From assembly GCA_023807065.1 (NCBI GenBank), contig JAJJLU010000547.1:1-32454 (forward strand): a DNA stretch of 32,454 nucleotides, given 5' to 3'. The position numbers and the translations under genes are program-made. The DNA comes from Isotricha intestinalis (taxonomy: Eukaryota; Ciliophora; Litostomatea; Vestibuliferida; Isotrichidae). Positions 1,784-32,425 of this stretch are shown one piece after another. The stretch's first letter is position 1. The number at the start of each line of letters is the position of its first letter. The notes under the pieces are model-generated. The model was given only the letters and a program-made list of their open reading frames with translations. It was not told the origin of the DNA and did no database searches.

Positions 1784-3814
1784 ATGACAAGTCAAGATTT
1801 AAATCACATCCTTCAATCACATTTTAAAATTTCAGTAAACCCTTCATCTAACTTTCCTTATTCCTCAACACATCAAGAAACAATCGCTCTCTTCCGTCAT
1901 CAAGAGCTTCCTCAAGATTATCAATATATAGATCCTCGTTTATCACCAAATGAAAAATATTTATCTGTGATTGGAAAAGGAACAATGGATGATTTTGTTT
2001 TAATTTACGACACTGATGATTTAAATGAATATAAGTATAAATATAAAGAAGGAAAAATATTCGGTGTTGATTTCGCTCCTGATTCAAGAAGTTTTGTTAT
2101 TATATATAAAAATCAACCTCCTATTCATTATAATATTTCATCTGGGAAAAGAATTATTTCTTTTAAATCTCATAATAAAGAAAGTTTTATTCCTATTTCT
2201 TCTACTTTTTCTGCTAAATGTAGATTTTATGGTTTAGCTTATGATTTCGGGTTTTGCATTTGGGATGCTTTAGATGGAAATTTGATTAAATGTTTAAATG
2301 AAGAAAGTGATAATAAAATTATTAGAGAAAATTTACTTATTTCTATTAATAAGAAATGTAATGTTAAAATTATTAATTTCCAAAATGATCAAACTATTAA
2401 AAATTTTAATATTTATAATATTAATTATAATGATATTTTAGCTATTATGCTTTCTCCTGATTTAGAATATATTTTTATTGGATTAAAAGCAGCAATTGTT
2501 AAAATGGAAATTGAAACAGGAAAATTTGAAAATGTTATTACTTTTAAAAGTGAAGTTTCAAGTATTAAATTAAATGAAAAATGCGAATTGGCAGTATCAA
2601 CTAATTATAAAAATATAGATTTTTGGAATTTAAAAAATAAAAAAAATATCGGTTCAATATTAAAAGACCCTTTCAATTCATATACATTTAATTTCTCTAA
2701 AGAAAAATTAGTAATTGCAAATGATATAAGTATAAGTATATTAAATTATAATGATGGAGAAACAGAGAAATTCATATGGTTAAATTTAAATCCTGAAAAA
2801 TTTAATTATTTTTCATTTTCTCCTGATTTTAAAGTATTATTAGCATATATAGATGAAGACAATGCAATATTATACAATTGTGAAAATGGAGAAATAATTA
2901 GGAAATTTCAAAATAATGAAAAAAAATATCCTTTAATATGTGAAATGGTTCCTTCATCAAGTGACTTTGGAGTTTTTGCTATTAAATCAGATAAAAATAT
3001 AGTTAAAATCTATAATTATATTAATGGAGTTGAATTAATGAATTTAAGTGGTTTTAACACTTATTCTTTTTCTTTTTCAGAAAAAGGAGATTTATTAAGT
3101 TGTGGTTGTTTAAAAGGAGAAGAAATAACTCGAGTTTGGAATTTATTAAAAAATGAATTTTATTCTTATTCCTATAATGGGAAAAATAATAATATAAATA
3201 CTTTAGTTAATATTACTAAAAGTGAAAGACCGAAAATAATTTGTGTTTCCGAAAAGCAAAATCCTATAATTTTCGATTTAATAAGTCAAGAATTATTATT
3301 CGAATGTGATTGTCCTTTTATATATGAAAAAGTAGAAAAAATATCTAGTTCAAATAATAATAATTTTTTCATTGTTAAAGGAATGGATTCTTCAGGAAAA
3401 AGTCAATGTGTTGTTTTTTCTCTTGAAGATGGTAAATTAATTACTCAGTTTAATAATTGTAATTGTATTCATATTGGAAATGGAAATTTAATTCTTTCAA
3501 AAAGCCAAAATAAAAATAATGGGAATTTAATTATTTCTGATTTAAGTGATTTTGATGATATTAAGGAAATTAATTGTGAAATTAATGCTGAAATTTCTAA
3601 TTTTTTACAAGATAAAAAAACTATTGTTTCTCCTTTTGGTTCTGAAGAAAAAAGTAAATTTATTTTAACTGATGTTAATAATGGAGAAATTATTGGAAAT
3701 GTGGAATATGAAAAAATTAAAGGAAATCATGCTGAAGTTGATTTAAGTGCTAATGTTGATGATAATACTTTAATTTTTACTTATATTGAATTGGTTGATA
3801 GAAATTTAAAGTAG
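1784..3814 (+). CDS. Beta-propeller (WD40-like) repeat protein
   Basis: This is a 676-residue protein starting MTSQDLNHIL. An in-frame Met lies upstream at 1658, but the 42 residues it would add are Phe/Leu/Tyr/Lys noise from AT-rich DNA and overlap the divergent gene, so 1784, which sits in an AAAAAATG context, is preferred. Degenerate WD40-type blades recur, each with a turn such as SPDLEYIFIG, FSPDFKVLLAY or FSEKGDLLSCG followed by a hydrophobic strand and a WN or IWD dipeptide. Two seven-bladed propellers would fit the length. No membrane segment is seen. Such proteins are scaffolds; the partner cannot be told from sequence. The first about 150 bases use many C-ending codons (CTC, TTC, CAC), while the rest uses almost only A- and T-ending codons. 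The gene ends in TAG and converges on the gene at 3919-4623. Confidence 0.8.
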   Translation: MTSQDLNHILQSHFKISVNPSSNFPYSSTHQETIALFRHQELPQDYQYIDPRLSPNEKYLSVIGKGTMDDFVLIYDTDDLNEYKYKYKEGKIFGVDFAPDSRSFVIIYKNQPPIHYNISSGKRIISFKSHNKESFIPISSTFSAKCRFYGLAYDFGFCIWDALDGNLIKCLNEESDNKIIRENLLISINKKCNVKIINFQNDQTIKNFNIYNINYNDILAIMLSPDLEYIFIGLKAAIVKMEIETGKFENVITFKSEVSSIKLNEKCELAVSTNYKNIDFWNLKNKKNIGSILKDPFNSYTFNFSKEKLVIANDISISILNYNDGETEKFIWLNLNPEKFNYFSFSPDFKVLLAYIDEDNAILYNCENGEIIRKFQNNEKKYPLICEMVPSSSDFGVFAIKSDKNIVKIYNYINGVELMNLSGFNTYSFSFSEKGDLLSCGCLKGEEITRVWNLLKNEFYSYSYNGKNNNINTLVNITKSERPKIICVSEKQNPIIFDLISQELLFECDCPFIYEKVEKISSSNNNNFFIVKGMDSSGKSQCVVFSLEDGKLITQFNNCNCIHIGNGNLILSKSQNKNNGNLIISDLSDFDDIKEINCEINAEISNFLQDKKTIVSPFGSEEKSKFILTDVNNGEIIGNVEYEKIKGNHAEVDLSANVDDNTLIFTYIELVDRNLK

Positions 3815-3918
3815 GGTTTTATTTTTTTCTTTTTTTTTTTTTTATTCTTTTTTTTTTTTGATTTTTGATTTTTTTAATTTTTTTTTTTTATTTAAAAAAA
3901 TTAATTATTTTAACGTTA
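3815..3918. other. T-rich convergent intergenic spacer
   Basis: This 104 bp spacer lies between two convergent genes and is mostly uninterrupted T runs on the plus strand. It probably holds overlapping 3' ends for both genes. No hairpin typical of a bacterial terminator is present. Confidence 0.4.
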
Positions 3919-4623
3919 TTAATATATAAAATATAAATTATTTAAACAGAAATATTTTTGTTTAGTCACATTCCATTTTATTTCTAATAAAGAATCCATA
4001 TTATATGAATTTGATTGAGAAAAATTACAAAATCTTATTTTATTATCATAAATTAAAATATCATCATTTTGTTTTTTTTTAGAAACATTAATTTCTTTAA
4101 AAGAATATAAATGAACAATTTCTTTTTTTATTTTATATAAAGAAAAATTAATAGTATAAGGAATTTTATCATTTTCATTTTGTTCTATTTCAATACATTT
4201 TAAATTATTTAAATCATTTATTTTATACATTAATTTCTCAGAAAAGCATTTTCTTTCGTTTATTTCAATTTGAGAATTTTTTAAAAATTTTTTTATAGGA
4301 TTTTCAATTGTAATGTTTTTATTATTTATTTTGAAATTTATTGATAGTTCATTAGGGAAAATAAAAGGAAAACATTGAGTTAAATTCATATATGTATTTA
4401 TTGGATAGCATTTATTTTCTTTTTTATTATTATTTATTTTTTTACTTTGAGTGAAATTTGATTTTTTTTCTTTTGAATTTTTTCTTTTTGATTTTGAAGA
4501 AAAATAAAAGAGAATTAAAAGAATAAAAAGAAATAAAATTAAATTCCTAAAAGAAAGAATTTTATTTCTTTTTTTCTTAAAAACTAAAGAATTACTAAAA
4601 TAAATGAAATTATAATTTTTCAT
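3919..4623 (-). CDS. Single-pass type II membrane protein, unknown function
   Basis: The frame encodes 234 residues. A short basic N-terminus (KKKRNK, about 16-21) is followed by one strongly hydrophobic helix (about 25-42, rich in Leu, Ile and Phe), then a Lys/Ser/Asn-rich stalk (about 43-70) and a presumed luminal domain of about 160 residues. That domain has at least six cysteines and several N-x-S/T sequons (for example NLT, NIT, NVS, NFS, NVT). The positive-inside arrangement predicts a cytosolic N-terminus and a luminal or extracellular C-terminus, and the sequons suggest glycosylation in the secretory pathway. I recognise no family. It ends convergently with the gene at 1784-3814, and its start is about 150 bp from the 3' end of VPS13. 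Paired cysteines and sequons argue that this is a real gene and not an AT-rich artefact. Confidence 0.65.
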   Translation of the reverse strand: MKNYNFIYFSNSLVFKKKRNKILSFRNLILFLFILLILFYFSSKSKRKNSKEKKSNFTQSKKINNNKKENKCYPINTYMNLTQCFPFIFPNELSINFKINNKNITIENPIKKFLKNSQIEINERKCFSEKLMYKINDLNNLKCIEIEQNENDKIPYTINFSLYKIKKEIVHLYSFKEINVSKKKQNDDILIYDNKIRFCNFSQSNSYNMDSLLEIKWNVTKQKYFCLNNLYFIY

Positions 4624-4771
4624 TTAATTTTAAAATTAAATTTAAAAAAATATAAAAAGCCTTTTATATTAAAAAAAAAAATAATAAACTTATAAAATAC
4701 AATTTTAATTAAACAAATAATTCAGTTGAAATTTTAAATAAAAAAAATAAACTTTTATTAAAAAACGAAAA

Positions 4772-7700
4772 CTACATTTTTACAGAAGTCCTTAAAGATT
4801 TTTCAGTATTCATTCTTTCAGTATCAACCTTTTCTCTAATTTGTTGTCTGAACAAATCATAAAGTTTAGAAACTACTTTTTGTTCATAAAACTTAAAGCT
4901 TTTTTTACCACTTCCTTTACTTTCAAAATATAAATTAAAATAGTCTTTTTCTTTCATAACATTTACTTTCTCAACATCATCAACTTTTAATTCAAAAACG
5001 CTTTTAAATTTCTCATCAATTATAATAAAAATTTTATCAGTCATAATAACAGTATTATAATTATTATTATCTTCTTTTTTAATATCAGCGAAAAATAAAA
5101 TTTTATTAGTATCATATATTCTTAAAATATCTTCTAATAAATTTTGAACTTCAGCTAAATTTTCTTTATAAACTTTAATAGTTTCATTTTCTGTTATTAC
5201 TCTAGGATGTCTAAATCTAACTTCTTCAGGAACTTTCCCAATGAAATATTTAATAGAATCATTTTTCATTTCAAATATTATAGCAGAACTTTGAATGTTT
5301 TTATTATTATTATTATTATTATTATTAGAATTTTTTAATTTTTTATAAAAGCTTTGAACACCATCAATAACAACATCTTTATAAGGATTAAGGAAAATAC
5401 CATTTAAACAAGGACTTTCACTTTTTAATTCAAGTGGATTTCCTTTAGTAATATATTTATTTCTATTTCTTTCAATTTGCTTTTTAATTTCTCCTATATT
5501 ACTATCATTTTGCATATTTAATAAAGTTCCTGTTGCAGTTGTTAAATATTCTTTTCCTTCATTATATAAATCATTTATTAAACTATGAATTCCTAAATTT
5601 AATCTTTTACCGAAATAACCTGGTCCAAGCATAAAACCTTTTCTTGTTTCATTGACTAATTCAATAAATCCTGTTCCTACTGAATCTAATAATTTAATTG
5701 GATTTGTTATTAAATTTTTAAATCCTAAATTCTGATAAAATTGATTTATTGTTTGTGTTTGATAATGCTTTATTAATAATGCATATAATTTTGATAATCC
5801 TATAAAAGCATTTTCATATATCATTTCACGGAATTTTATTTGACCATTTTCAAATTTTATTTCATCGGAATTTTCATCGTTTTCTTTTTCTAATTTCCTT
5901 AAGAAAATAGGAATATTAAATTTTTCAGAATCTGATATATTAAAATTGATATTTATTTCAAATTTTATTGCTGAGAAAAATATATAATTAAAAAGTAACA
6001 TTCCTGAATCTATTTTTTCTAAATTTACTCCTCCCATTAAAAAGTTATCTTCTGGAATATTAATTTCTGTTGTTAATAAATTTGATTGTCTTTCCATTAA
6101 ATTTCTTTGTTCTATATGTAATATTGTTAATATTGAATAATATTCTTTTAGAGTTTGAATTATTTTTTCTAAAGAATTTTGAGATAAGTTAATCACAAAT
6201 TCTTGTAAAATAAAATCAATTTGAGGAAATTTTTCTACTTTTTCATCAGTTTTTAAATTATTTGTTTTTTGTCTACATATTAAAACTTGTAAGAAAGGAT
6301 AATAATCTTTATCTTCTTTAAATAATTTTTCTTCATTATAAGGTAAAATTTGATTTTTAGGAACAAAAATAACTTTTTTATCCCAATCATTTAAGCAATA
6401 ATCAATTTGAGCATTTTTAATAAAAAATTGAATAGTTTCATTATTTTCTGATATAGCATCTTTTTTATCAATTGCATTAGAGTATTTTAAATCAATACCA
6501 TAAATTGATAAATATGCAATTTCTTGTGGTTTACTGTTTATTATACTTATTCCAATTCCTTTTAAAGACACTTTAATTTTTGTTATTTTTGGTACTTTTT
6601 TATTTAAAAATATCTTTCTTACTACACTTATATCTTTTGAAGGAATATCTATTTCAATTTTAAATAATCTCGTAAATCCATTATTACTTGTTGAAACTGA
6701 AGTTTTAATAATTTTCTCTTCATTTTTATCTTTAAATTGAACTTCTTTTTTATCAAATCTTGCAAAAGAAAATAAAATATCGGTTTTAAATAAATGACAT
6801 TTAACTTCTGAATTTTCTTCTTTTCTAACAAAAGGAACTGTTTTAAAAGGTAATATAGTAACTAATTCAGTTCTTGATAAACTTAAATCAACTGAAGTAT
6901 TAGTATTATTACATATTTCAAAAAGAGGATATTTTGGTTTTGAAAAAGTAATATAAATTAAAGCAGAATCAATTGTTGTTATACTTACTCTAATAATCAT
7001 ATAAAATTTAGTATTATCATATGAAAAACAAGAACGATCAAAATATTCATCATCTTTAGATATTTCTATTTTAACATCTATTTCACTTATATTTTCTATA
7101 TTAATATCTTCAGACCAATTCCCATTTATTCCAATCATATATTTATTAGTTTTTCTAGCAAAAATTAAAGGATGTTCAGTTTCATCATCAATAGAAAAAG
7201 AATAAGTTCCATCTTCATCAAAATAAGGTTTTACTTTTATAGGAAAACCAATTTTATTAATGAACATATATCTAGGTTCAAATGTAATAATAGAACTATT
7301 TGGAAATAAATTACTAGATCCTATTGTCATTGCAATTTCAGGTTTATCAATATTTTGATCTTCTGATACAATTTCAAATTCTTTTTTTTGAGGTTCAAAA
7401 TCAACTAAACCACCTAAGCCAATAGAATTAATTTTAAAAGGTTTACTTATTCTATTTTTACATTTTAATGTCATTGAATCTCTATCAGATGAAAGTAAAG
7501 ATACTTTATTTTTAGGTAAATTATATGAAATGTTTAAAGTAGTTTCAGAAGGAATTAAAAATAAGTTTAACATTGTTTTATTAATGACAATATAATCAAT
7601 GTAAAAAATAAAGCATTTTGATTTAATTAAACTTCTTTCAGGAGCGACTTTAAATATATCATTAAAATGTAAATATTTTTGAGTTTCATCAATTTCTCTT

Positions 7701-20304: not shown

Positions 20305-20535
20305 GTTTTTTTTGTTATATGAATTTTAAATGTTTTTTTATTTAATTCAAATATATTTATTATTGAATTGAGTAGAATAATTTAATAAATGAAATAATTT
20401 AATAAAATGAGAATATTTAAAAAGTTAATCTAATAATAAATGAAAATCATAAATTTTATATGAATAAATGTTTTTAAATATATATTTGAAGATTGATTTA
20501 TTTTCTTTTCTGATATGATAATTTTATTTTTATTT
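20305..20535 (+). repeat. Upstream repeat U1 (before secreted gene A)
   Basis: About 230 bp upstream of secreted gene A, matching the stretch at 21491-21763 in the same orientation. Both begin TTTTTGTTATATGAATTTTAA, share TTCAAATATATTTATTATT and a GAGTAGA...AATAATTTAATAAAAT block, and end with GATTGATTT..CTTTTCTGATAT. Likeness by eye is high apart from indels. It is probably the promoter and 5' flank of a duplicated gene unit. Confidence 0.7.
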
Positions 20536-20580
20536 TTATTTTTATTTAATGTCTATTATTATTTAAAAAAAAATAAAAAG

Positions 20581-20991
20581 ATGAAAACCTTAACTTTAAT
20601 CTTATTATCATTTATCTCTTTTATTTTTGCAAAACAAATATTTGTAAAAACAGGAACAGGATTAATAGGAAATACATTTCAATGGAAATTACCAGGGATG
20701 AGAGAAGGATCTTTATTTATGGCTGCATGTGTAATCGGAGGTCTTGGAAGTGATAAAGAAATGTTTAGTGCTAGAAAATGGGCTGTTAGTAAAGGATATA
20801 TAAGAGGAAATGATACTTATGTTAATATGAGTGGAATGGAATTAGCTAAAAAAATTGCTCAAAATTATGGAACCCAGTTTCATGGAAATTGGGATATTAA
20901 AGAAGGATGTAATAAAAATTTTTGGGTTGTTGATGATAAAAAAAGAGAAGTTTATAATTCTAATGGACTTGGATATACTGGATGTAAGTAA
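20581..20991 (+). CDS. Secreted protein A, paralogue of the gene at 24176; putative active-site residues lost
   Basis: The frame encodes 136 residues. The start at 20581 gives a classic signal peptide (MKTLTLILLSFISFIFA, cleavage likely before KQ at 18-19). An in-frame Met 22 codons upstream (20515) adds only AT-rich noise and is rejected. The mature domain of about 119 residues begins KQIFVKTGTGL, contains FMAACVIGGLGS (about 46-57), a conserved central block (about 64-95) and ends NGLGYTGCK. It is about 80% identical to the protein at 24176. The most notable differences fall on two residues that look catalytic in that paralogue: Cys44 is Ser here, and the His of GHFWVID is replaced, within a one-residue insertion, by Asn (NKNFWVVD). 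I do not know the family. Its layout could suit a small secreted cysteine hydrolase, in which case this copy would be inactive. It is flanked by repeats U1 and D1. Confidence 0.85.
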   Translation: MKTLTLILLSFISFIFAKQIFVKTGTGLIGNTFQWKLPGMREGSLFMAACVIGGLGSDKEMFSARKWAVSKGYIRGNDTYVNMSGMELAKKIAQNYGTQFHGNWDIKEGCNKNFWVVDDKKREVYNSNGLGYTGCK

Positions 20992-21987: not shown

Positions 21988-23052
21988 TTAAGCCAAATTT
22001 TTTTTTGGTTTTTTTCTATTGAAGATACAAACTTCATTAGAAAAGTCTGTATATCCTTCAGGATAGCATTTCATACAACTTATACATCTCGATTTTCTAT
22101 CATCACAATTTTTCCATCTTATTATTATATCAGGTTCACTTAATATAGCTCTACAAATACCAATATATTGAATATTACTATTGTTCAATGCATCATTAAT
22201 AACATTTAAATCTTTACCGCCACCAGTAATTATTATAGGTATTTTTAATATATCGGCCAATTTTTTTCCTATATCAAAATAAACAAGTTTATTTTCTTTA
22301 TTTACTTTCCATTTCATTCCAGTTATATCTATCATATCAATTCCAGCTTCTTCTGCCATTTTACATGCAGTTATAAATCCTTCAGGAGTAATACCATTTG
22401 GGTTATTATCTTCACTATTAATTTTTAATATTAATATATATTCATTTCCAATTTTTTTTCTTATTTTTTGTATAATTTCAACAATAAATCTTGCTCTATT
22501 TTCATCTGAGCCTCCATATTCATCTGTTCTATGATTAAACATTGGAGATAAAAATTGACTTAAAGTACCATGATGATTTGCTCCTATTTCAACACCATCA
22601 AATCCTGCTGCTTTGACTCTTACTATGGTATCTGCAAATAAATCTGTAAGATGATGGATTTCATCTGGAGATATATTTAAATCTTTCATAAGTGAAACTT
22701 GAGCAATAAGATTAACTCCATTTTTATGTACAACTTCAGTTAATTTCTTAAATTCTTCTATATATTCATCTTTTTCCAAGGTTGGTACTGGTAAAGTTTC
22801 AACTGGTTCTATTAATATACCTCCTGTAATTATAGTTCCTATTTCTAATTTTGATAACTCTTCATATTTTTTTAATCCTTTCTCTGTTATTTTACCATTT
22901 TCAAATAAATCACAATCGGCTATTGCACCTTTGAAAACTCGGTTTTTTAATTTCATATATTTATATTGAGTTTCATCAAATAAATCTTTTTTTTCTTTAG
23001 TGTTTATTTGGGATAAACATATTATCAATGATAATAAATAAGTTTTGAACAT
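21988..23052 (-). CDS. Old Yellow Enzyme-family NADH:flavin oxidoreductase with N-terminal signal-like extension
   Basis: The frame encodes 354 residues and covers a single FMN-binding TIM barrel. The family start pattern LFDE...MKLKNRVF is at 24-40. The core motif FDGVEIGANHHGTLSQFLSP is at 151-170, then NHRTDEYGGSDENRARF (173-189), a substrate or FMN Lys near LILKINSED, and the phosphate-binding loop IIITGGG. Residues C323, C326, C329 and C342 resemble the 4Fe-4S cysteine set of the dienoyl-CoA reductase/BaiCD branch, but the NAD(P)H-binding domains of those longer enzymes are absent. The usual EIH is EIG here, so one of the paired active-site polar residues is missing. The first about 18 residues (MFKTYLLSLIICLSQINT) form a hydrophobic signal-like extension not normal in this cytosolic family. 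Such enzymes reduce activated C=C bonds or xenobiotics. It resembles bacterial anaerobe homologues, and transfer is plausible. It lies alone between two telomere-like palindromes. Confidence 0.88.
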   Translation of the reverse strand: MFKTYLLSLIICLSQINTKEKKDLFDETQYKYMKLKNRVFKGAIADCDLFENGKITEKGLKKYEELSKLEIGTIITGGILIEPVETLPVPTLEKDEYIEEFKKLTEVVHKNGVNLIAQVSLMKDLNISPDEIHHLTDLFADTIVRVKAAGFDGVEIGANHHGTLSQFLSPMFNHRTDEYGGSDENRARFIVEIIQKIRKKIGNEYILILKINSEDNNPNGITPEGFITACKMAEEAGIDMIDITGMKWKVNKENKLVYFDIGKKLADILKIPIIITGGGKDLNVINDALNNSNIQYIGICRAILSEPDIIIRWKNCDDRKSRCISCMKCYPEGYTDFSNEVCIFNRKKPKKNLA

Positions 23053-24175: not shown

Positions 24176-24583
24176 ATGAAATCCTTAACTTTAATCTTAT
24201 TAACATTTCTCTCTTTTATTTCTGCAAAACAAGTATTTGTAAAAACAGGAACAGGATTAAAAGGAGTATCTTTACAATGGAAATTACCAGGGATGAAAGA
24301 AGGATGTTTATTTATGGCTGCATGTGCAATAGGAGGTCTTGGAAGTGATAAAGAAATGCTTAGTGCTAGAAAATGGGCTGTTAGTAAAGGATATATAAGA
24401 GGAAGGGATACTTATGTTAATATGAGTGGAATGGAATTAGCTAAAAAAATTGCTAACAATTATAAAACTAAGTTTCATGGAAATTGGGATATTAAAAAAG
24501 GATGTGGTCATTTTTGGGTTATTGATAATAAAAAAAAAGAAGTTTTTAATGCTAGTGGACTTGGATATACTGGATGTAAGTAA
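24176..24583 (+). CDS. Secreted protein B, putative cysteine-dependent hydrolase-like
   Basis: The frame encodes 135 residues with a signal peptide (MKSLTLILLTFLSFISA, mature from about K18). The mature part carries EGCLFMAACAIGGLGS (42-57), the block SARKWAVSKGYIRG (63-76), DTYVNMSGMELAKKIA (78-93), FHGNWDIKKGC (100-110) and GHFWVIDN (111-118), ending GLGYTGCK. Cys44 before a hydrophobic helix, followed about 65 residues later by His112 and Asp117 at the start of strand-like sequence, is the order used by small papain-like and NlpC/P60-type hydrolases. Both Cys44 and His112 are replaced in the paralogue at 20581, which supports their functional coupling. C50, C110 and C134 are kept in both and could form disulfides. 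The family is not recognised; a digestive or antibacterial role in a bacteria-eating protist is only a guess. Downstream lies repeat D2. Confidence 0.85.
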   Translation: MKSLTLILLTFLSFISAKQVFVKTGTGLKGVSLQWKLPGMKEGCLFMAACAIGGLGSDKEMLSARKWAVSKGYIRGRDTYVNMSGMELAKKIANNYKTKFHGNWDIKKGCGHFWVIDNKKKEVFNASGLGYTGCK

Positions 24584-28788: not shown

Positions 28789-31175
28789 ATGTCTAAAAAT
28801 TTCTTTTCATTTCAAAACACAATACCACTTCCAAATTCTTTTCAAAATTCTTTATCAAACAATAAAATTAAATCACCATATGAAACAAACATATTTAATC
28901 ATTATTCTACATTACAAAATAATTACAATCCAATAAATAATATAATGATAAGTGAATCTCCAGCTTCAATAGAATTAGAACCAAAGAAAAAAGAAATAGA
29001 TCTTATAATAAAGTAAAATAATAATATTATATTTTTTTTTAATTTTATAGAGTTAAATCGTCAGATCAAGAAGATCATGATGAACCAATGACAATAACTA
29101 TAATTTCTTCAGGAATAAAACAACAAAAAGTTCAAATTCAAATTACAAGTCCTCATGATCCTTTAATTTTATATATGCTTGATATTACTGAAGTTGAATT
29201 TCATCAAATTAAAAAAGAACAAAGCTTATTAATTGACTTTCAAAATTTTCCTTCTTTCCTTAATCAAATGTTAGATTTATGTAATGAAGATGAATTAAAA
29301 AAATACACTTGTATTTTACATAAAACTAGTATTTACGAAGCTTTACTTGTTATTCAGGAAAGAACTGATTTTAGAGAGTTAAATCATTTAATTTTAAGAG
29401 TTAATCAAGCTAATGATACTATCGTTAAAAAATTTTTAGGTGCTTTGTCTTTGGAGTTTAAAAGTAAATATGAAGATACTTTAAATAATTTTAATAATCT
29501 TTCTGTTAATGTTGATGATTTAAATAAAGAAAATGCAGATTTAAAAGAATTAATACTGAAAAATATGCAAGAACAAAAAAATTTGGAAGATAATTTATTA
29601 AATGAGAAAAATAATGAAATTAATCAAATTAAAGAAAATTTATTTCAAGAATCAAAAAATAAAATTGAAGAAATGGAAAAGGAGAAAAATTTAAAAATTA
29701 ATGATTTAGAAAATAAAATATCTTCTCTTCAAAAATCAATAGAAGAAATAACAAAAGAAAAACAAGAATTAGAAGATAATAAAATGAAATTAGAATTAAA
29801 TTACAAAGACTTAGAAGGTAAAAATGCAATATCAAACACAGAGATAAATGTATATAAAGAAGATATATTAAAATTAAGAGAAGATAATTCTAATTTAAAT
29901 CAAAAAAGTTTTAAACAAGAAAAAGAAATAACTGAATTAACTTTTAAATTACAAAACGCAGAAAAGCAATTAGAAGAAAAAAATAAAGGAGGAGAAAATT
30001 TAAATCAATTAGTAGATACATTATCAAAACAAAGAGAATCAAATGAAGATAATATAAAAAGTTTAAAAGCAGCAAATTTAAAATTAGAAGATAAATTACA
30101 AACAAGTATAAATGAAATAAATAAAGGAAATGAAATTATTCAAAAATTACAAGAAGAAATTAAAAGTATTAAATCTAAATATAAATCTGCTAAACAAGCT
30201 TTAAGTTCTCAAGAACAATTAACTCATGAAAAAGAAATGCAAATTGAAGATCAGTTAAGATTAATTGATGATGCTAAAAGAGAAAGTGATTTGAAAGATA
30301 AAGAAATTTCCGCTTTAAAAAATCAATTAAGTGGTTATTCTATTAAAATAAGTGAAAATGAAAAATTAATTGAAGATAATAAACAAATGATTATGTATTT
30401 AAATAAAACAAAAAATGATAATATGAATAATCCTTTTAGAAGTAGATTTATGAATAATAATAATAATGGTAATTTTATGGGTAATGATTTAAAAGGAAAT
30501 AACATAAATCAATTTAATCCATTAAATACAAATAATTCTAACTTCAATACTCAAAACAATAACTTCAATCCTAATAATAATAATAATATTACTTCAAGTA
30601 ACTTTAACACAAATAACAACTTTAACACATTAAACAACTATAATCCAAATAATAATTTAAACAAAAATACTTTTAATAACACTGAGAATAACTTTAATCC
30701 AAACAATAATAACTTTAATACAAATAATATTTATTCAAATAATTATTCAAACACAGGAAATTACTTTAATACTGGAATGATAAGAAACATGGGAACAAAT
30801 ATGGGACAATATGATACAACAGGGATGAATAATATGGGAATGTTTGGAACAGGAGATCAATTTTCAAATTCTCAAATGGAAAATATGGGAAATTCATCTA
30901 CATTAAATAACAGTGGTATGTTTATTATGCCTGAAACTAATTTTACTAATTTTAAAGCTGGTATTACTAATAATAAATATAATTATATGAATTCTACTAA
31001 TTCAACCAGTGGAAATTTACTTAATCATAAATATGGAATGATGGCTTCTTCTTTAAATAATAATAGTAATGATAATAACTCAGATTATGGTAAAAGTAGA
31101 GGAACTTATAATATTGAAGAAGAATTTCCAAGACAAATGATTAAACCTATGAATGTTGTTGGTAAAAATAATTAG
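28789..31175 (+). CDS. SAS6: SAS-6, centriole cartwheel protein, two exons
   Basis: Joining 28789-29012 and 29051-31175 gives 782 residues. An Asn/Ser-rich leader (1 to about 62) precedes the head domain (about 63-205): EIDLIIKVKS spanning the splice site, HDPLILYMLDITEVEF (110-125), LLIDFQNFPSFL (134-145) and ERTDFRELNHLIL (178-190). Phe182 in ERTDF aligns with the Phe of human ETNPF that drives head-to-head oligomerisation. A coiled coil spans about 217-529 and ends with the conserved LIEDNKQMIMYLNK (514-527). The tail (530-782) is Asn/Phe/Gly/Met-rich low complexity with repeating NNFN and GMxNMG motifs. SAS-6 dimers stack into the nine-fold cartwheel of basal bodies. Without the splice the PISA strand would be lost, since exon 1 runs into TAA. 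The long Asn-rich tail is specific to this lineage as far as I can tell. Confidence 0.9.
29013..29050 (+). other. 38-nt spliceosomal intron in SAS-6
   Basis: It begins GTAAAATAATAATATT and ends TTTTATAG, with a T-run before the AG, and contains an in-frame TAA. Splicing joins AA to A (Lys75) and continues GTT AAA TCG in frame with the SAS-6 head domain, where the first Met codon of exon 2 is at 29088. Confidence 0.88.
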
Positions 31176-31247
31176 GCTTTAAGTTTTAGATAATTTTTTT
31201 TTAATTTTTGATTTTTTTTTAATAAGAAAATATTTAATTTTTTTAAT

Positions 31248-31736
31248 TTAAGCAGGATAAACCATATTTTCTTCTTTAATTTGATATAAAACTTCATCTA
31301 AAAATTTCTTACTTTCATATTTTGCAATAGTTAAATTATGATCTAAATAATTTCCACAAGAAAATTCATCAGCGCCAGGAACGACTCCTTCATATTTGAG
31401 TATAAATTCAAATAAATCAATAACCATTTTAACAACATCTTTAGGTTCTAATTTTCCTTTAAGAAGAAGATAATATCCTGTTCTACAACCCATTGGACCA
31501 AAATATACTGTCTCCTTTTTGTAAGTCTCATGATTACGAAGGAAAGTTGCTCCAAGATGTTCTATTGCATGACATTCAGCTGTGTTCAATACTGGCTCAC
31601 GATTTGGTAACTTCATTCTTATGTCAAAAGTTGTTACTATTACTTCTCCTGTTTTGTTGTCGTAATCACGACGTGAAAGGTATATTCCACGGAGGAGACG
31701 TTTATGGTCTACTTTGAAACTTTCGATTTTTTCCAT
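31248..31736 (-). CDS. luxS: LuxS, S-ribosylhomocysteine lyase
   Basis: The frame encodes 162 residues, the normal length of bacterial LuxS. The start at 31736 (MEKIESFKVDH) matches the family N-terminus; an in-frame Met 35 codons upstream adds AT-rich noise and is rejected. The metal site is HAIEH (56-60) plus Cys127 in SCGNY. The catalytic Cys84 lies in GPMGCRTGYY and the base Glu59 in HAIEH. His11 and Arg40 (FDIR) are also kept, so the enzyme should be active. LuxS splits S-ribosylhomocysteine into homocysteine and DPD, precursor of AI-2, in the activated methyl cycle. The sequence (NTAECHAIEHLGATFLRNHE) is close in type to LuxS of gut Bacteroidetes/Firmicutes as I remember them. LuxS is a bacterial family, so transfer is likely. 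There is no signal peptide and no intron. The 5' half is clearly GC-richer (CGT, GAC, CTC codons) than neighbouring genes. It converges on SAS-6 with a 72 bp gap and lies about 690 bp from the telomere repeat. Confidence 0.95.
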   Translation of the reverse strand: MEKIESFKVDHKRLLRGIYLSRRDYDNKTGEVIVTTFDIRMKLPNREPVLNTAECHAIEHLGATFLRNHETYKKETVYFGPMGCRTGYYLLLKGKLEPKDVVKMVIDLFEFILKYEGVVPGADEFSCGNYLDHNLTIAKYESKKFLDEVLYQIKEENMVYPA

Positions 31737-32119
31737 TTTTTTAAAATGGTTTTTTTTTTTTTTTTGTTTTAAATATTTATTAATAATAATATAAAACTTA
31801 TATATAAAAATAAATAAATATTTTATCATAAAATGATTCATTTATCCTTTAATATCAAAAAAGAAATTTTATTTTGTAACATTATAATGATGATATATTG
31901 TCTTTGATTTAGGAATAAATAGAGATAAATATAAAAAAAGTAAAAAAATTTGAAGTCTTGAGAGAAAATGGATATTAATAGATTTAACAAATGGAAAATT
32001 AAATTTAGTTTTAGAAAAATTAAAAAATAAAATTAATATTCAAACTGAAATGAAGATGTTGATTTTATAAGAATAAATAATCTAGTAAAATAGTTAATAA
32101 AAATTTAATTTCAAAATAT
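31737..32119. other. Subtelomeric intergenic DNA
   Basis: It contains the LuxS 5' flank and AT-rich DNA. A plus-strand frame around 31960-32068 (WILIDLTNGKLNLVLEKLKN) looks faintly protein-like but has no start, is closed by stops on both sides and spans under 40 codons, so I do not call it a gene. Nothing else is visible. Confidence 0.4.
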
Positions 32120-32299
32120 TTATTTATTTAGACATAATCCATATTTATCATTTTTTAAATATTCTTCTAATCTTACTTCTCCTTTATGATTATTTTCACA
32201 ATTATATTTTATAAAATATTCATTGTTTCTTTCTATTAATTCAATTAAAGGTGTTTTATTACAATTAAAACATCTTTTAATATTTAAAAGAAGAAACAT
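32120..32299 (-). CDS. Small subtelomeric CxxC ORF
   Basis: A 59-residue frame starting MFLLLNIKRCFNCNKTP. It holds C-x2-C (CFNC, residues 10-13), then LIELIERNNEYFIKYNC with a third Cys, NNHKGEV, RLEEYLKND and a final GLC. The C-x2-C...C arrangement followed by a helix-like EEYLK segment looks like a small zinc-knuckle unit, of the kind that starts larger proteins in some AT-rich protists. It could be complete, a first exon, or a gene cut off near the chromosome end. It lies about 130 bp from the telomere-type array. Confidence 0.4.
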   Translation of the reverse strand: MFLLLNIKRCFNCNKTPLIELIERNNEYFIKYNCENNHKGEVRLEEYLKNDKYGLCLNK

Positions 32300-32425
32300 T
32301 TTGATTGTTATTATTTTTTATTTTTTCCATTTTAACTTTTAAATATAATTCATCTCTTAGTTAAACTATTTTTATTTTTTTCAAATATAAATATTTTAGA
32401 AGAATAAATATTTAACAATTAACAT

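Follow-up and report, generated by a model that had tools for sequence, protein, structure and literature searches.

A complete luxS gene lies on a eukaryotic chromosome, among eukaryotic genes and between an intron-containing neighbour and a telomere, in an assembly that in all likelihood represents a trichostome gut ciliate's macronuclear genome. We consider it probable that this luxS came from gut Bacillota and that a bacterial nucleosidase–LuxS route, yielding DPD/AI-2, replaces S-adenosylhomocysteine hydrolase (SAHH) in this ciliate. To our knowledge, SAHH is near-universal in eukaryotes. The enzyme and this type of transfer are already known; the setting, replacement of a core eukaryotic step, looks new. 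What the present analysis adds to a sequence-only reading of the same DNA is the missing SAHH and a matching nucleosidase.

A luxS gene between SAS-6 and a ciliate telomere

The window, the whole stretch of 32,454 nucleotides analysed, is an entire contig (C347) of a 57.3-Mb assembly of 2,153 contigs. By ORF check, the luxS frame runs without internal stop from an ATG at 31736 to a TAA ending at 31248 (Table 1). Its product matches the Pfam LuxS profile (PF02664) over profile positions 1–153 of 154 with 189.9 bits (E = 3e-56; cut-off 27), and NCBIfam NF002604 with 203.1 bits (cut-off 158). An in-frame ATG upstream (31841) would lengthen the protein by 35 low-complexity residues; the homologues displayed begin at the position equivalent to 31736. 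A script found Ser6, His11, Arg40, His56, Glu59, His60, Cys84 and Cys127 in place, of which we take HxxEH and Cys127 to be the metal ligands and Cys84 and Glu59 to be catalytic, with roles presumed also for Ser6, His11 and Arg40. A profile search of the assembly contigs returned the window gene as the single LuxS match.

Table 1 Features of the luxS end of the window
Feature	Position	Strand	Remarks
SAS-6 exon 1	28789..29012	+
SAS-6 intron	29013..29050	+	38 nt, GT-AG
SAS-6 exon 2	29051..31175	+	eukaryotic neighbour of luxS at 72 bp
Spacer, SAS-6 stop to luxS stop	31176..31247		72 bp; GC 8.3%
luxS	31248..31736	-	162 aa, intronless, catalytic residues all present
Subtelomeric stretch upstream of luxS	31737..32424		GC 13.5%; short ORFs (50, 59, 39 aa) besides in-frame luxS extension
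Telomere repeat (TGGGGAT)n, contig end	32425..32454	+

The neighbouring gene is SAS-6 (PF16531, E = 3.7e-23); within the stretch tested, no GT-AG interval other than its intron yields one 782-aa frame. At such profile scores a random match is ruled out for both LuxS and SAS-6. The sequence-only reading had described a complete LuxS that keeps HAIEH (56–60), Cys84, Cys127, His11 and Arg40 and sits 72 bp from an intron-containing SAS-6 gene, and both the gene and its neighbour proved to be as it said. WD40-repeat proteins are also among the window neighbours, and no recognisable bacterial gene flanks luxS among the window ORFs, their Pfam matches and the subtelomeric ORFs.

On the other side of luxS, 688 bp upstream of its start, the contig terminates in (TGGGGAT)n, which has been published as the telomere motif of trichostome gut ciliates; the repeat is absent from the left end of the contig. 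Across the assembly, a telomere 21-mer gave 816 forward and 920 reverse matches (reversed control, 0 and 0), and the 100 matches listed lie either at coordinates 2–76 on the minus strand or at high coordinates on the plus strand. Among six other contig ends inspected, two carry the telomere (the starts of C276 and C584) and four do not (the C276 end, both C1154 ends and the C540 start). A search with a 45-base pattern allowing up to 3 mismatches, in which close relatives could be collapsed, located one 18S site; it holds a 1,642-nt eukaryotic SSU (RF01960, 1601.5 bits), followed by 5.8S and LSU. Contamination had been judged unlikely from the letters of the window, and because the contig ends in the trichostome telomere motif, the eukaryotic location is backed more strongly than that earlier reader could know.

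The window also has a subtelomeric 59-aa ORF upstream of luxS (32120–32299, minus strand); it contains a CxxC motif and may be one exon of a truncated gene. Two similar small proteins (20515–20991 and 24176–24583), 3.2 kb apart and with signal-like starts by eye, have no Pfam match, and the second has no PHROG match either. An FMN oxidoreductase (21988–23052; PF00724, E = 1.7e-41), also with a signal-like start, is possibly another transferred gene.

Relatives and ancestry of luxS

Nearly all scored candidates (7,993 of 8,000, from a set of at least 8,000) match as LuxS relatives. Among the best 120 of these 7,993, P0001 is 93% identical to the window protein, P0002–P0005 are 76–78% identical and the others at most 74%; P0001 is the closest LuxS sequence of any kind among the matches listed. 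P0003 appears by eye to be an assembly chimera, P0001-like in its first part and P0012-like in its second. In genome contigs the LuxS pattern occurred in at least 597 stretches, 579 of which encode relatives; in the best 80 of the 579, the closest named bacterium is a goat-rumen Clostridia MAG (L008) at 71% identity. There, luxS lies near ORFs that we read as RimP and NusA.

Two trees were built. The first, with 88 of the 202 sequences collected (P0025–P0120 and 18 loci left out), paired window LuxS with P0001 (100/99) and joined P0002, P0004 and P0005 to the pair (100/95), this five-row clade falling inside a 33-row group of gut/rumen Bacillota and unnamed proteins (93/96). The second, with 94 rows and rooted on a Fusobacterium, excludes P0061–P0120, P0003 as a probable chimera, and the loci from L042 on, among which are the six longest rows. 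It recovered the same five-row clade (100/97), with P0024 adjoining (97/82), within 68 rows (98/99); branching order between the clade and the 68-row level is weak.

Because luxS nests in gut/rumen Bacillota, with a named bacterium at 71% at best and the nearest sequence at 93%, the sequence comparisons support its acquisition by horizontal transfer, from a donor that would be placed within gut/rumen Bacillota and no more finely. Transfer from a gut bacterium had been the inference of the sequence-only reading, and both LuxS trees back it. The pattern that reading set against a ciliate gene, near-identity within one bacterial species together with flanking bacterial DNA, was not seen: the nearest named bacterium in the best 80 loci stands at 71%, and luxS has no recognisable bacterial neighbour. 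From their place in the tree and their short contigs, we infer that P0001, P0002, P0004 and P0005 are likewise ciliate genes.

In composition, luxS has 31.5% GC, 17.2% third-position GC and a codon score of 0.137, compared with 15–30%, 6–13% and 0.42–0.63 across 12 other ORFs measured in the window. One oddity is its arginine codons, CGT in six of eight cases; those of its neighbours are AGA in 170 of 196. Forty luxS-sized windows of neighbouring genes have a lowest codon score of 0.134, a 5th percentile of 0.352 and a median of 0.544, and 0.132 was obtained for one of the genome's own MetK copies. Since this MetK copy and the lowest neighbour window score equally low, the codon score gives no transfer date, and a recent transfer read from it was dropped.

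A viral vehicle for luxS was also rejected. Viral contigs gave nine pattern stretches, and a single one codes for a relative, which shares 48% identity and falls far from the ciliate clade; with P0002 as query none of seven does, and luxS has no PHROG match. On a 74-kb IMG/VR viral contig (L092:3395–5474), an ORF read as metK (3395–4735) lies close to a luxS (5001–5474) whose product is 48% identical to window LuxS, giving a virus with two methyl-cycle genes.

Methyl-cycle genes and candidate nucleosidases

Profile search of this one assembly returned no candidates for either SAHH domain (PF05221, PF00670). Among 14 control genomes, 9 matched PF05221 and 12 matched PF00670. The same tool found four MetK matches. 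Two of these (L088 and L091) have one TAA inside, which may mark an intron, a pseudogene or a reassigned stop. CBS has one full-length match at 487 bits, below the cut-off of 510, a value reached by none of the 14 control genomes. The CGL family has one full-length match (475 bits) and three weak ones; the full-length protein falls under all 25 NCBIfam cut-offs shown, at which cystathionine and methionine lyase are not separable. For methionine synthase, the profile search of the assembly gave no candidates with PF02574 (MetH/BHMT) or PF01717 (MetE).

The assembly has four PF01048 matches, two DeoD-type (L004 and L007) and two MTAN-like (L005 and L006). The DeoD-type pair (L004:1450–2190, and L007:2–274 at a contig edge) are purine nucleoside phosphorylases in a ciliate genome, and L004 scores above the curated cut-offs for both NF004489 and TIGR00107.

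L006 lies on C276, whose start carries the ciliate telomere, and adjoins a gene encoding a sperm-tail PG-rich repeat; luxS is on C347. The protein aligns with the MTAN structures 4pr3 (66.8 bits) and 6po4. Its Glu35, Glu161 and Asp184, whose catalytic roles we take from Escherichia coli MTAN, are invariant in 37 of 37 aligned sequences (L006 and 36 relatives selected from the best 120 listed). Of the Pfs-type nucleosidase that the sequence-only reading named as the maker of the LuxS substrate, two MTAN-like candidates were thus found, but neither reaches a curated cut-off: L006 scores 72.5 against 129, 67.3 against 152.2 and 47.5 against 73.8 on the NCBIfam MTAN profiles, and L005 scores 70.7 against 73.8 and 102.6 against 169. 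We file L006 as MTAN-like only, and SAH is a putative substrate for either protein. L005 resembles the MTA/SAH nucleosidase 5b7g, both having Asn in place of the catalytic Asp, and was set back as a supplier of S-ribosylhomocysteine (SRH) because of this replacement.

Among the relatives of L006 listed, one identical cluster (24 sequences on 18 contigs) is followed by a group at 58–90% identity; by label, Rickettsiales stand at 53%, and Alphaproteobacteria and Lactobacillaceae at 52% each. This mirrors the pattern of LuxS relatives. A tree of 78 rows placed L006 in a 14-row clade (100/99), which sits beside Rickettsiales-labelled rows on a weak joining branch (89/47). Viral contigs commonly carry nucleosidases related to L006: of 254 pattern stretches there, 210 code for such a protein, and the best 80 of the 210 (L110–L189) are 34–45% identical to L006.

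A proposed nucleosidase–LuxS route in place of SAHH

In the pathway we propose, a trichostome (gut or rumen) ciliate would have taken luxS from gut Bacillota and would retain it in its macronuclear genome. SAM-dependent methylation would yield SAH, from which L006, apparently also of bacterial origin, would strip adenine to leave SRH; LuxS, if active, would then split SRH into homocysteine and DPD, the AI-2 precursor. These two steps would substitute for the SAHH of ordinary eukaryotes. With no methionine synthase found in the assembly, homocysteine would pass on to cysteine by way of CBS and the CGL-type enzyme. The conversion of DPD to AI-2 is a cyclisation that needs no further enzyme; AI-2 would arise here by chemistry alone, would leak out of the cell and may reach bacteria. 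If so, the ciliate would be a clear case of horizontal transfer replacing a core step in a eukaryote, and each SAM-dependent methylation would, wherever its product is recycled, also yield DPD. More tentatively, the exchange of SAHH may be lineage-wide, may have drawn on two separate donors and may make these ciliates a large source of gut AI-2, with P0001, P0002, P0004, P0005 and the nucleosidase relatives at 58–90% all belonging to other ciliates.

The same genes could be read with luxS acquired and active, and SAHH present but missed by the assembly, LuxS then only clearing SRH that a side activity forms from SAH or that is taken up from prey bacteria. The loss of SAHH, which for the species as a whole would be an extrapolation, rests on one assembly in which its absence could be a gap, and the nucleosidase candidates, with scores below the cut-offs, are putative MTANs. 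Many bacteria of the kind that rumen ciliates eat carry LuxS and so make SRH. One survey (PMC7035670), in the text available, describes AI-2 genes as common in the rumen. We nevertheless regard this account as unlikely: the tool that returned MetK, CBS and a CGL-family gene gave no candidates for either SAHH domain.

A transferred luxS in decay, or one serving some other function without AI-2 production, is very improbable given that its frame is open and its catalytic residues are all kept, and that the HxxEH, PMGCRTG and SCGNY motifs, read in the alignment, are retained in P0001, P0002, P0004 and P0005. Slightly less credible still, and rejected on the telomere, the flanks and the nearest relatives, is a bacterial luxS fragment fused to a ciliate contig by chimeric assembly or contamination: luxS is close to a contig end and its codon usage is at the low edge for the genome, but the MetK copy has an equal codon score, both flanks have 8–14% GC and lack a recognisable bacterial neighbour, bacterial sequences are at most 71% identical (best 80 of 579 loci), and a join at 31176–31247 would still leave luxS on a ciliate chromosome end because the telomere lies beyond it.

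The replacement of SAHH by a nucleosidase and LuxS, our preferred reading, has partial counterparts in known systems. LuxS of gut/rumen Bacillota (PF02664/NF002604) has the family, length and catalytic residues of the ciliate protein, which the trees nest there, whereas the ciliate gene is on a macronuclear chromosome, has no recognisable bacterial neighbours and is 71% identical at best (best 80 of 579). Bacteria recycle SAH by Pfs (MTAN) and LuxS, and the ciliate genome has candidates for both steps while SAHH was not found; unlike the bacterial pair, the ciliate genes are on separate contigs (C347 and C276) and have different bacterial relatives, and the nucleosidase is below the curated cut-offs. 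In Helicobacter pylori, the available text of PMC2923134 describes a LuxS–MccA–MccB reverse transsulphuration, in which homocysteine from LuxS goes to cysteine via CBS- and CGL-type enzymes; the ciliate, a eukaryote, resembles it by gene inventory alone.

Bacteria-to-rumen-ciliate transfer with donors and recipients of the same kind has been described (PMC1413528), in a main text with no occurrence of LuxS, homocystein, S-ribosyl, autoinducer, nucleosidase or cystathionine. The string eukaryot is absent from the available text of a LuxS survey (PMC5029033), as is LuxS from the main text of the Balantidium paper, and none of the titles listed in the literature searches deals with LuxS in ciliates or any other protists. 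As far as their available texts go, a rumen AI-2 survey (PMC7035670) and an AI-2 review (PMC10838665) look at bacteria where they treat AI-2 in the rumen; the word ciliate is absent from both, and protozoa occurs three times and twice, respectively. One account, in the part available, puts the protozoan share of rumen biomass at up to 50% (PMC7200989). If a ciliate is a source of AI-2, rumen AI-2 measurements would have to be read differently, and the idea is testable by existing bioassays. A eukaryote that produces a compound read by AI-2 receptors is already on record in yeast, where, by the available text of PMC8092285, the AI-2 mimic made by Cff1p is MHF and Cff1p is not LuxS; the ciliate product, in contrast, would be DPD from LuxS.
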